DNA from: a virus
Reading direction: 5' to 3' (one strand)
Length of the DNA: 64,000 nucleotides
Virus record (IMG/VR): IMGVR_UViG_3300031997_000620
Span: 1-64,000 of that record
Positions within the stretch are counted from its first letter, which is position 1. The number at the start of each line of letters is the position of its first letter. This document shows, in pieces, positions 6,200-23,043 of the stretch. A program made the translations under genes and the position numbers. The notes beneath the pieces were generated by a model. It was not told the origin of the DNA, did no database searches, and saw only the letters and a list, made by a program, of their open reading frames with translations.

Positions 6200-6703
6200 A
6201 TGAGCCACATTGATCTTAAACTTGGAAACAATCTATACGCAAAAATCTCGGAAGAAGACGCAGACGTTATGACCCTAGGTAGCTGGACTGCCCACGGCAG
6301 TAAGAGCGGCAACTATGCTTGTATGCGCACCACCATTGGAGGAATGCGGCAGCGAGTCTGGTTGCATACTTTGATTATGGAAGAACTGATCGGCCGATCC
6401 TTAAAGAAGGATGAACTCGTTGACCATATCAATCAGGACAAGCTAGACTGCCGGCGAAGTAACCTGCGCATGGCTAACCGAACGCAGAACAATGCGAACA
6501 AGGGCAAGCGTAAGGGAACTAGCTCCAAGTATAAGGGGGTATCTTGGTCTAAGAAGCATGAGAAGTGGAGATGCTACATTGTCATTGACCGAAAGCTCAA
6601 GCACCTAGGACTGTTTGATGACGAGAAGGAAGCAGGACTCATGTATAACAAGGCGGCAGCCGAAGTATTCAAAGAATTCGCAACATTGAATAAAATCAAA
6701 TGA
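6200..6703 (+). CDS. HNH homing endonuclease with AP2 DNA-binding domain
   Basis: 167 residues. An HNH-like core has VDHINQDKLDCRRSNLR (about 76-92). It is followed by an AP2/ERF-type domain (about 110-160: KYKGVSWSKKHEKWRCYI... LGLFDDEKEAGLMYNKAA). This is the standard phage arrangement of free-standing homing endonucleases, which cut related genomes lacking the gene. It has its own promoter just upstream, as expected of a selfish insert, and a GGAGG ribosome site (6190s). Confidence 0.9.
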   Translation: MSHIDLKLGNNLYAKISEEDADVMTLGSWTAHGSKSGNYACMRTTIGGMRQRVWLHTLIMEELIGRSLKKDELVDHINQDKLDCRRSNLRMANRTQNNANKGKRKGTSSKYKGVSWSKKHEKWRCYIVIDRKLKHLGLFDDEKEAGLMYNKAAAEVFKEFATLNKIK

Positions 6704-7671
6704 AGTGTGACCTAGTATGTGAAGGTGGGGGCACTAAGATTAGTGGTCTAGTAGGGGGCATTAAAGCCCTTGAAGATCAAGGGTTTGAATTTGTCAATAT
6801 GGCAGGAGCATCGGCTGGGGCAATTGCCATGAGCCTGAAAGCAGCAGGGTACAACTCTACAGAACTAGAAAACTTAATCCTTAACTTAGACTTTAAGGAA
6901 TTCCAAGACGGGAGTAAATTCCTAACTATCTACAATTGGTTTGTCAATCAAGGCATCTATAAGGGAGATGCCTTCTATCAATTCATGAAAGACAGGCTTA
7001 AAGAAAAAAACGTCTCCACCTTTGGGGACTTAATTTGTTATAAGGAAAATGGGTATGCTGAAACGAATTATAAATGGAGATGGAAGCTAAAGGTTATTGC
7101 AACTGATGTATCTAGGAACGAGATGGTAGTCCTACCGGATGATGCAGAAGCGTATGGGCAGAATCCAGATGAAGTTGAAGTGGCCCAAGCTATTCGTATG
7201 AGTATGAGTATTCCTTATTTCTTCCGGCCAGTAAGAAAGTGGGATGCGTGGTTTATTGATGGTGGAGCAACTTCTAATTTTCCTATCTGGTTGTTCGATG
7301 CTAATACAGTAGAAGAAATAACTCACCCTACCTTCGGGCTCTTGCTAGATGGTGGGGAGTTTGAAAGACATAATGAGATTACGGGGTGGTGGACATACCT
7401 AAAAGCTATTCTGAATACAATGCTAGAAGCACATGACAGAAAGTTTATCCATCCAGAAGACTTTGACAATAGAATTATTAAGATCCCTACTGGAGATGTA
7501 GGGTCAACTGATTTTAATTTGCCGAGAGCAAAGAAAGAATGGCTGGTGCATTCAGGATATATTGCAGGAAAAGAATTTCTAAGTGATTGGACATGGGAGG
7601 ATTATCTCGAATGGACAAAGAAAAAGATGGAGGAGAGGAGAGGCTCTCCGTCTATGAGTTTCAATCGCTAA
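6700..7671 (+). CDS. Patatin-like phospholipase
   Basis: 323 residues with all three patatin marks: the oxyanion-hole glycine run EGGGTKISG (8-16), the nucleophile elbow GASAG with Ser38, and the catalytic Asp in DGG near residue 188. Family members are lipid acyl hydrolases acting on membrane phospholipids. In a phage it could damage or remodel the host membrane, aid lysis, or be a captured gene; none of these can be chosen from sequence. It has no signal peptide, so action from the cytoplasm is likely. Its ATG overlaps the stop of the endonuclease gene. Confidence 0.88.
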   Translation: MKCDLVCEGGGTKISGLVGGIKALEDQGFEFVNMAGASAGAIAMSLKAAGYNSTELENLILNLDFKEFQDGSKFLTIYNWFVNQGIYKGDAFYQFMKDRLKEKNVSTFGDLICYKENGYAETNYKWRWKLKVIATDVSRNEMVVLPDDAEAYGQNPDEVEVAQAIRMSMSIPYFFRPVRKWDAWFIDGGATSNFPIWLFDANTVEEITHPTFGLLLDGGEFERHNEITGWWTYLKAILNTMLEAHDRKFIHPEDFDNRIIKIPTGDVGSTDFNLPRAKKEWLVHSGYIAGKEFLSDWTWEDYLEWTKKKMEERRGSPSMSFNR

Positions 7672-13384: not shown

Positions 13385-13482
13385 GAAAGATAAACTAACA
13401 CAACAAACCACACACTACTAACACAGAAACACAGAAAACAAAAAAATCGATAAAGAAAGAAAACGAAAATTCGAGTTTACGA
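13385..13482 (+). other. A/C-rich, T-poor non-coding leader
   Basis: About 98 bases dominated by A with C and few T on this strand, including runs of A. There is no ORF of note. On the + transcript it should be largely unstructured, and it leads straight into the stem-loop element at 13483. It could be a 5' leader, a loading site for a protein, or an unwinding region; nothing in the sequence decides among these. Confidence 0.6.
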
Positions 13483-13582
13483 GAAGAGTCTGGAGGGGTC
13501 TATGTACTATGTACATTATACTACTGAGCAAGTTTTCTAACAGTGAGTAGAGCCGACTCCTTGGTAGCCCTCCAGACTCTTC
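13483..13582 (+). ncRNA. Predicted cloverleaf RNA element with 15-bp closing stem
   Basis: Arms GAAGAGTCTGGAGGG (13483-13497) and CCCTCCAGACTCTTC (13568-13582) are perfect complements. Inside are a 6-bp hairpin (13502-13507 with 13511-13516, loop TAT), a hairpin around CTACTG (13521-13526) with CAGT/GTAG (13541-13550), and a short hairpin (13552-13556 with 13561-13565). Together they form a four-way junction of about 100 nt. It ends 23 bases before the ATG at 13606. The 5' arm holds a GGAGGG ribosome site for a 12-codon reading frame, so the stem may gate translation. I do not recognise a known RNA family. Confidence 0.6.
13502..13540 (+). CDS. Possible 12-codon leader peptide
   Basis: GGAGG (13492-13496) is 5 bases before an ATG that opens MYYVHYTTEQVF and then TAA. 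The spacing is ideal and the frame is rich in Tyr (three of twelve). The ribosome site lies in the 5' arm of the 15-bp stem, so translation and folding exclude each other. It could be an attenuator-style leader or a chance frame. Confidence 0.35.
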   Translation: MYYVHYTTEQVF

Positions 13583-13605
13583 ACCCTAATCAAAAGGAGA
13601 ACAAT

Positions 13606-13689
13606 ATGGGCTTTTTCATTGGATTTGTAATTGGGTCAATACTTGTTCTATTAGGAATGTTGGTGGGTCTTCATATGGGGAGGGATTAA
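13606..13689 (+). CDS. 27-residue single-pass membrane peptide
   Basis: MGFFIGFVIGSILVLLGMLV followed by GLHMGRD is almost entirely one transmembrane helix with a short charged tail. A strong AAAGGAG ribosome site (13592-13598) sits 8 bases upstream, and the stop is one base before the next ATG. This is a well-supported mini-gene. Its role is unknown, though small hydrophobic phage peptides often act on the membrane or on membrane proteins. Confidence 0.72.
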   Translation: MGFFIGFVIGSILVLLGMLVGLHMGRD

Positions 13690-14052: not shown

Positions 14053-14548
14053 GAAGAAGAAGAAGGTTGAGCCGGTTGTAGTTGAATACCCCAAGGTATA
14101 TGTCAAGTGTGACCTTGCCTGGATAGAGGGCGGGGGAGATACTAGCCCTGGCGAAAAATGGTCTGATCGTGAGACAGAGTATCGTCATTACGAAGTAGAG
14201 GATTACTTTCTTCTGTCTGATGGCGGGTTTGGATTCGATTCAGTAGAGGTTCCGGACTGGAAAGAAGGCACGGATACAATCTATGCCGTTATGGTTCACT
14301 ACTCTACAGGGGATACCTTTGGCCGTTGCGAAGGGTGTATTGCTATTCCCATTGCTTTTGTTGACTTAAATGAAGCTAACGCGGTAGCTAAGAAGATCGA
14401 TCAAGAAAGCAAGAATAGCGACGACAGATTTTCAGATCCTACATATGGGTTTTATAAGTCTTGGACAGGATACTTTGAACATACAGATGGGGTCGAAGTA
14501 AAGAAGTTGACGTTAGAAGGAACAGGACTTTATAGGAGTAAGAAGTAA
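14042..14548 (+). CDS. Hypothetical protein, 168 aa
   Basis: I chose ATG 14042 over earlier candidates (14039, TTG 14024) because AGGGGAGG ends at 14037. A basic start (KSKKKKK) is followed by a beta-rich acidic body with many aromatics and a segment GDTFGRCEGCIAIPIAFVDL containing a Cys pair. I do not recognise a family. It overlaps the next gene by one base. Confidence 0.68.
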   Translation: MKSKKKKKVEPVVVEYPKVYVKCDLAWIEGGGDTSPGEKWSDRETEYRHYEVEDYFLLSDGGFGFDSVEVPDWKEGTDTIYAVMVHYSTGDTFGRCEGCIAIPIAFVDLNEANAVAKKIDQESKNSDDRFSDPTYGFYKSWTGYFEHTDGVEVKKLTLEGTGLYRSKK

Positions 14549-15438
14549 TGGAAGATGCAATCCCGAGTATCGGGCTAATTGGTCTAGGCTTCGTTGGTGG
14601 AGCTATGTACAAAGGGTTCGCTGGTCACACAGACATCTATTGTTATGATAAGGACCGTAACGTCGGCAGCTATGATGAAGTGGCTAATGCGGATATTATC
14701 TTTGTAGCAGTCCCTACTCCTATGCACCCGGACGGGTCTTGTGATACCCGTATTATTGAATCTGTTCTAGAGAATTTAGAATTTGAGTTCAAGAATCGAA
14801 CTGTTCGCAAGCCAGTCGTCATTCGTAGTACGGTTCCTCCTTACTTTTGTGCCCGCATGGCGGAGCTTTATGGTGGATGGATGGAGATCATCTTCATGCC
14901 CGAGTTCCTTACAGAACGCACAGCAACATTAGACTTCATCCAGTCTTCTCGATTCATTATTGGGACAGATCCAGAATGCTTTGTAAATGATAGGTTCGAT
15001 AGTCAGATGAATCCTGATGTAATGATGGTAGCTGAGTTGTTTCGTTCTAGGTTCCCCAAGACTCGTATTCCCATTATGACGTGGCAAGAGGCAGGACTCG
15101 TGAAGTATGCTACAAATACTTTCTTTACAGTTAAACTTTCATTCTTCAACGAGTTGTTCGGCGTATGTGGAGCGACTGGGGCTAATCCTGACAATGTAAT
15201 TGGAGAGGTGCTCGAAGATGGTAGGATTGGCCGTAGTCACTTTGCAGTCCCCGGGCATGATGGGGACTTTGGGTGGGGAGGGCATTGCTTCCCTAAAGAT
15301 AACCGGGCCTATTCTACTTTTGTAAAAGCTCTAGGGCTCAAGTCTATCATGGCGGAAGCTGCCTGGGACGTGAATGAAGTTGTTAGATCAAATCGAGATT
15401 GGGAAACACAGATTGGGCGAGCAGTTTCAGAGGATTAA
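14548..15438 (+). CDS. UDP-glucose/GDP-mannose dehydrogenase family protein
   Basis: 296 residues. The NAD-binding Rossmann start IGLIGLGFVGGAMYKGF (8-24), the substrate-domain pattern MPEFLTERTA, and the catalytic GGHCFPKD (about 244-251, with the Cys nucleophile) are diagnostic. Bacterial enzymes have about 400-450 residues, so the C-terminal UDP-binding domain is missing. It may oxidise a nucleotide sugar to a uronic acid for the phage glycosyltransferases at 33-39 kb, or use another sugar nucleotide. It is set among replication genes, away from the other sugar genes. Confidence 0.85.
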   Translation: MEDAIPSIGLIGLGFVGGAMYKGFAGHTDIYCYDKDRNVGSYDEVANADIIFVAVPTPMHPDGSCDTRIIESVLENLEFEFKNRTVRKPVVIRSTVPPYFCARMAELYGGWMEIIFMPEFLTERTATLDFIQSSRFIIGTDPECFVNDRFDSQMNPDVMMVAELFRSRFPKTRIPIMTWQEAGLVKYATNTFFTVKLSFFNELFGVCGATGANPDNVIGEVLEDGRIGRSHFAVPGHDGDFGWGGHCFPKDNRAYSTFVKALGLKSIMAEAAWDVNEVVRSNRDWETQIGRAVSED

Positions 15439-21963: not shown

Positions 21964-23043
21964 ATGGGATTTTTCAATGAATTAGGTACGAAGATCAAAG
22001 ACGACGGCATGCTGACCTTTATCGACTCCTCTCAGACATTCGCAGGCTCCACAATCCCTTACGGAGTAAGAACAGGGGTGCCTATGCTAGATCTAGCCTT
22101 GGGCCGTCCTGGCTGGGCCGCAGGCAGAGTAGTAGAGCTATATGGGTTTGAGGGTTGTGGCAAGACTACGTTGGGGCTACATGCTATCGCCCAAGTACAG
22201 CGCATGGGAGGCATGGGCATATTCATTGACTCCGAGCTAACCTTCGATCCTTACAGAGCCAACCAAATTGGTGTCTCACAAAAATACGGTGAAGACTTTG
22301 CACGCATTGAAGCGCGCAGCGTGGAGGCAGGGTTTAGAGCAATCCAAGGAATTACGAATGCAATCAAGGAGTCAGGTGAAACTCGGCCTATGGTTGTCCT
22401 TTACGATTCAGTTACGGGGTCTAACCTAGAGTACAACATTACCCGACTTGCTGATAAGAAGAGCGGCTACGCATTTGGGGCAGCCGAACGCATTGGGCAG
22501 GAGGCTAAGTCAATTCGAACTGGCATGCGCACCATAGCCGCAGACATTTCGGCTACCAAGATTGTCCTGATCTTCATTAACCATGCAGTCGCTACAATCG
22601 CGGGAACTTACGCTAAAGCTTCGCAAGCGGCAGGCGGTCACGCTATCAAACTGTTTGCCAGCACCCGTTGCGAACTCAAAAAGTCTACTAAGATCAAGGA
22701 CTCCGATAAAAATCTTCTTGGTGCGGAGACGAACATCTTCATCGAGAAGAGCAAGGTAGGAGGAGTATCAATCGAAAACGTCAAGGTAGAGCTAATGAAT
22801 ACCTATGGCTTCGATACGGTTGGCAACCTCCTAGAAGCGGCCAAGGAATCCGGTATGGTGGAATGGCCCGCTAAGGCAAAGACAGGAACGCTTAAGTTCA
22901 TAGATCCGGGCCGTGTAGTCAGTAAAGCTGATTGGGGCCAATTTGTCGAAGAGTCTGGGGGGGTTGACGAAGTGTACAGTCAATTCTACAGGTGGTGCTT
23001 TCAAAATGGCTTAATGCGACCTTATGGAGAAGTTAGTGGGTAA
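21964..23043 (+). CDS. RecA/UvsX-like recombinase
   Basis: 359 residues. Walker A GFEGCGKTT (61-69), the Walker B-like VVLYDSVTGS, and the following IVLIFINHAVATIAG segment fit RecA/UvsX strand-exchange proteins. It would load on ssDNA coated by the protein encoded at 20.3 kb and act with the Mre11/Rad50 pair downstream. ATG 21964 is fixed by AGGAG (21955-21959); the longer frame would run through the predicted pseudoknot. Confidence 0.9.
   Translation: MGFFNELGTKIKDDGMLTFIDSSQTFAGSTIPYGVRTGVPMLDLALGRPGWAAGRVVELYGFEGCGKTTLGLHAIAQVQRMGGMGIFIDSELTFDPYRANQIGVSQKYGEDFARIEARSVEAGFRAIQGITNAIKESGETRPMVVLYDSVTGSNLEYNITRLADKKSGYAFGAAERIGQEAKSIRTGMRTIAADISATKIVLIFINHAVATIAGTYAKASQAAGGHAIKLFASTRCELKKSTKIKDSDKNLLGAETNIFIEKSKVGGVSIENVKVELMNTYGFDTVGNLLEAAKESGMVEWPAKAKTGTLKFIDPGRVVSKADWGQFVEESGGVDEVYSQFYRWCFQNGLMRPYGEVSG

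Follow-up and report, generated by a model that had tools for sequence, protein, structure and literature searches.

A stable intergenic RNA fold behind a DnaB-like helicase gene as a possible mRNA processing or stability element in a phage lineage without close cultured relatives

Stem-loops that serve as RNase III processing sites are known between genes in the early mRNA of phage T7 and in Bacillus phage SP82, and 5' stabiliser stem-loops are known in phage and bacterial mRNAs, for example in the T4 gene 32 and Bacillus aprE leaders. The element considered here, a predicted RNA fold at positions 13483-13582, resembles the T7 and SP82 sites in its intergenic location, in its long, near-continuous helix and in its placement just upstream of the next ribosome site; it differs in that it forms a three-way junction, exists in a single copy and has a cleavage that is proposed, whereas the T7 and SP82 sites are single imperfect hairpins. 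Like the T4 gene 32 and aprE stabilisers, it places a strong stem within a few bases of the ribosome site that follows, but those stabilisers lie at or near mapped mRNA 5' ends, whereas our element is predicted from sequence. In Salmonella, the intergenic short ORF mgtQ is accompanied by alternative stem-loops before mgtB and is reported to promote translation of the downstream gene (PMC8092293). The likeness to mgtQ lies in an intergenic short ORF that overlaps stem-loops; in our element, however, the ribosome-binding site (RBS) of this ORF is locked and the fold exerts no visible control over the downstream RBS. An RNA of related phages, modelled here as R1, occupies the same locus, is structured and carries a Shine-Dalgarno (SD) motif followed by ATG, but it is unrelated in sequence (E 5.5 in the window) and has a promoter of its own.

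The window, that is, the 64,000-nt stretch of DNA analysed, covers positions 1 to 64,000 of the virus record IMGVR_UViG_3300031997_000620, which comprises 83,233 bases. The element sits in a 221-nt gap. On its 5' side is an 85-aa gene, which itself comes after a DnaB-like helicase gene; on its 3' side, a run of small genes precedes genes for a sugar-dehydrogenase-like protein, a primase and a DNA polymerase. All these genes are on the + strand. Situated after the small genes and ahead of the primase, the gene at 14548-15438 is UDP-glucose-dehydrogenase-like (PHROG 9148). Elsewhere in the window, positions 6700-7671 encode a protein starting MKCDLVCEGGGTKISGLVGGIKALEDQGFEFVNMAGASAGAIA that looks patatin-like by its motifs. 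The 85-aa gene is followed by an A/C-rich intergenic stretch of 98 nt that is predicted to be unstructured (13385-13482, + strand); its portion 13392-13469 has the highest A+C content of any 78-nt stretch in the window (67 of 78 positions; the runner-up has 58) and ties for the weakest folding in the window (0.0 kcal/mol). At a distance of 11 nt beyond the element lies AAGGAG (13594-13599, + strand), the ribosome site for the gene that follows, a 27-aa ORF for a predicted hydrophobic peptide, MGFFIGFVIGSILVLLGMLVGLHMGRD (13606-13689, + strand), which has no PHROG match. Neither a sigma-70-like promoter nor a terminator signal stands above chance at the element, GC skew does not change sign near it, and no repeats were found.

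As the + strand RNA, the 100 nt of the element fold at -43.3 kcal/mol (z -5.68), a stability that was equalled by none of 200 shuffles (mean -25.4 kcal/mol, sd 3.2). The fold is closed by P1, a perfect 15-bp stem whose 5' arm GAAGAGTCTGGAGGG (13483-13497) and 3' arm CCCTCCAGACTCTTC (13568-13582) stand 70 nt apart, exactly as the initial annotation had described them; the 5' arm holds GGAGG at 13492-13496. Perfect 15-bp inverted repeats with a spacer of up to 300 nt occur once in the window against 0.02 expected from shuffled windows, 2% of which contain one. A coarse z-score scan finds similar values in other regions of the window, so that it is the long-range perfect stem, not stability alone, that sets the element apart. 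Within P1, the same annotation had seen a cloverleaf-like arrangement of three hairpins; the minimum-energy fold instead has two inner branches and thus forms a three-way junction. P2 (13502-13516), present in both the minimum-energy and the centroid fold, is a 6-bp hairpin with a 3-nt loop that includes the ATG of a putative leader ORF, and P3 (13521-13567), recovered in the folds of the window and its homologue alike, comprises 8 bp (13521-13528/13560-13567) and a further 9 bp in two segments (13531-13539/13548-13558). Because the 3' arm of P3 continues gaplessly into that of P1, the predicted fold holds a near-continuous helix of about 23 bp (15 bp of P1 and 8 bp of P3), in which the two stems may stack coaxially. 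The + strand folds more deeply than the - strand (-43.3 vs -38.9 kcal/mol), and the element also folds as DNA (z -6.1).

A single homologue was found, on IMG/VR contig 3300035701_000193, which runs collinear with the window between about 620 and 30516, in blocks that are 83-98% identical. In the local alignment, the two elements are separated by five transitions and two insertions. Two of the transitions fall in loops (13510 U to C, 13544 U to C). Of the others, one turns the G-C pair 13493/13572 into G-U and one turns the G-U pair 13526/13562 into G-C; an inserted C pairs with G13498. The outermost base pair is lost, and every other change outside the loops keeps or improves pairing. The sole double change, A-U to G-C at 13484/13581, deserves little weight, since the 13484 change can alternatively be aligned as an inserted G. 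The homologue adopts the same shape at -46.3 kcal/mol, compared with -44.8 kcal/mol for the window (both with flanks). When five transitions and two insertions are drawn at random, 3.8% of the sets attain that stability, and 8.3% do so in the reverse direction; a simulated probability of 4-8% for such pair-keeping changes is not negligible. The proposed check against relatives thus yielded pair-preserving changes in one homologue, while covariation in the strict sense comes down to one indel-linked double change in a close relative. The 27-aa gene is missing from the homologue, where the same AAAAGGAGAACAA, with its AAGGAG, runs directly into a 67-aa gene. The ORF that had been noted just downstream of the element is therefore present, but a functional link to its peptide fails: since the element is retained although the next gene differs, it is not dedicated to the 27-aa peptide and belongs rather to the transcript. 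The two relatives also carry different small hydrophobic peptide ORFs, the homologous contig having MEHILSLIAEGLLILVIVLVAFNFWEDRH one gene later, behind the 67-aa gene.

Does the element belong to a described class? No Rfam covariance model matches it at gathering score, the matches in the window being tRNAs only, and at E <=10 there is one unrelated weak match on the minus strand and nothing else. By ARAGORN and the tRNA model it is neither a tRNA nor tRNA-like; the tRNAs of the window are confined to 476-947. Together with the pair-preserving changes of the homologue, these negatives support the earlier view that the RNA is structured and falls in no known class. An intrinsic terminator was rejected, as ACCCTAATC comes after the stem and the element is absent from the terminator list. 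The predicted fold does present the double helix of about two turns (15 bp plus the gapless 8 bp) by which an RNase III site is recognised. No second copy exists in the 83-kb record, and searches of phages and plasmids gave no DNA match beyond weak ones attributable to chance. Pattern matches in two loci were likewise discarded as chance, the one in L014 because it falls in a coding gene and the one in L030 because it has no more than a 20-mer in common with the element and lacks the arms. The 85-aa, 67-aa and polymerase proteins, used as queries, returned solely the contig that bears the homologue. At 22948-22962, GAAGAGTCTGGGGGG matches the 5' arm of P1 with one mismatch; it lies in a coding frame (EESGG) and is probably a coincidence. 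Antisense pairing of the P1 3' arm with the mRNA at 22948 was dropped as a candidate, the complementarity being weaker in the homologue.

From a broader perspective, the spot behind dnaB tends to hold structured RNA. We collected 26 dnaB-type loci, most of which carry, directly behind dnaB, a sigma-70-like promoter, a conserved RNA region of about 150 nt and then a linker rich in A. Many also have a terminator-like stem ahead of the next ribosome site. The ~150-nt RNA was seen in at least 17 related-phage contigs, usually right behind dnaB (L032:3205-3360, L034:4933-5085, L046:4337-4495, L052:4934-5080 and L051:1863-2005, among others). In most, its promoter reads TTGCAA-N-TATAAT; GGGAGG stands ahead of an ATG with a non-conserved frame; the hairpin is GUGC-UAGAG-GCAC, elsewhere GCGUC-GG-GACGC or GCCC-CGGU-GGGC. 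In the scanned loci this RNA has no Rfam match at gathering score, and it may represent a new RNA family. The model R1 is in effect a sequence model, the automatic RNAalifold structure being poor (3 pairs), and recovers the held-out locus L051 at E 3.8e-19. Our element was rejected as a member of that family, the best match in the window lying away from it, and by any test made none of the RNAs at the relatives' loci is homologous to it. Long hairpins immediately behind dnaB were also observed at L055:950-1040 (L008:940-1040) and L049:3000-3085; they lie immediately ahead of the next ribosome site and have a pyrimidine-rich apical loop, UUUCCUCCUUU, that is like the anti-SD of 16S rRNA. The fold at L049 does not surpass that of shuffles.

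How might a leader ORF buried in such a fold be used? The GGAGG of the P1 5' arm is followed, after a spacer of 5 nt, by the ATG at 13502 of a putative 12-codon frame, MYYVHYTTEQVF (13502-13540, + strand; TAA at 13538-13540), all of which had been correctly read from the sequence at the outset, and its RBS is buried in P1/P2. Conceivably, a ribosome loads before the 3' arm is made, translates the 12 codons and keeps P1 open, a course of events that we consider unlikely; equally unlikely is its continuation, whereby the freed pyrimidine-rich 3' side would pair with AAGGAG and lower translation of the next gene (or coupling would raise it). Opening the leader RBS costs 27.6 kcal/mol in the finished RNA (25.5 in the homologue), against 7.5-11 kcal/mol in the nascent RNA before the 3' arm. 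In the homologue, the SD, the spacing, the ATG and the peptide are all kept, the sole change being synonymous (TAT to TAC at 13510), and the aligned RNA of the relatives likewise has an SD-ATG start at the same locus. A lone synonymous change within 39 nt tells little about coding, however, and the SD-ATG pair is weak evidence because such pairs are common by chance: an ATG lies 4-9 nt downstream of 16 of the 70 GGAGG motifs on the + strand. Anti-SD pairing by a freed 3' arm did not hold for the downstream SD of the window, which that arm hides no better than in shuffles (z +0.7 and +1.2) and whose pairing is the same in the full RNA and in RNA without the 5' half of the element. An alternative fold of the attenuator type, hiding or freeing the downstream RBS, was seen in the homologue only, where removal of the 5' half gains a 5-bp pairing to the downstream SD. 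With the downstream RBS outside the element and cheap to open (8.3 kcal/mol; 4.6 in the homologue), and the leader RBS locked in the finished RNA, the translation-coupled switch originally suggested is not supported; a switch would be possible only co-transcriptionally, and support for it is weak. That the element is a new phage cis-regulatory RNA, with a leader translatable only briefly before the 3' arm is transcribed, seems to us quite improbable.

A small RNA acting in trans, whether free-standing or cut out of the mRNA, would fit the compact, highly stable fold with its defined ends, and in the relatives the RNA region at this locus comes with a sigma-70-like promoter of its own. Our element lies outside that RNA family and has no recognisable promoter or terminator, which tells against the free-standing option of the initial annotation, and the near-copy of its arm at 22948-22962 is coding and less complementary in the homologue; we therefore regard action in trans as rather unlikely. 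Still further down the scale, and very improbable in our judgement, is a DNA-level site such as a cruciform, a replication or primase-loading site by the replication genes, or a recombination site. The neighbouring dnaB-like helicase, primase and DNA polymerase genes and an A-rich stretch next to an inverted repeat that folds as DNA would suit it, but there are neither repeats nor a second copy, and a replication origin was discarded because GC skew, which keeps its sign there, gives no support. Moreover, the change from G-C to G-U in the homologue leaves a pair in the + strand RNA only, as DNA and the - strand would have a mismatch there, which favours a + strand RNA over a DNA cruciform. It is also doubtful, about as much as the leader switch, that the inverted repeat is functionless, a product of chance or a relic in an intergenic gap. 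Chance yields such a 15-bp perfect repeat in about 2% of windows, and the pair-keeping changes, which come from one relative only, have a 4-8% chance; yet both low probabilities would have to coincide, and an insertion that contributes a further pair to the stem leaves the fold in place.

We tentatively favour, at not quite an even chance, an intergenic hairpin that acts in cis on the processing or stability of its mRNA. This reading is preferred over a switch, a free RNA and a DNA site because of the strong + strand stem, the unstructured stretch upstream and the ribosome site after it, and because the element is retained despite the change of the next gene and lacks a promoter or terminator. 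Consistently, most other relatives of the dnaB lineage that we examined have a structured RNA or stem-loop, unrelated in sequence, between dnaB and the next ribosome site. We envision that a long phage mRNA would be transcribed through the element and that its + strand RNA would fold into the 15-bp stem stacked on the 8-bp branch, with the small side hairpin, flanked upstream by the unstructured A/C-rich stretch and downstream by the next gene's ribosome site. A double-strand-specific nuclease, for example host RNase III, might then cut or trim at the fold, or the fold might instead block exonucleases; either way, the downstream part of the operon would gain a protected end just before its ribosome site. 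The processing step draws on what is generally known of phage intergenic stem-loops. A counterpoint is that the element is present once in the 83-kb record and has one homologue in a close relative, whereas T7 and other phages with RNase III sites have several of them. Our confidence is restrained because the processing or stability reading is drawn from two sequences.

The element is a clean, previously unlisted structured RNA from a phage lineage without close cultured relatives. If the leader is indeed translatable only briefly, its translation would report how ribosome and RNA polymerase race each other and would set the fate of the downstream mRNA. More generally, unrelated RNA folds that share the spot behind dnaB would point to control of the replication operon at the level of its mRNA.
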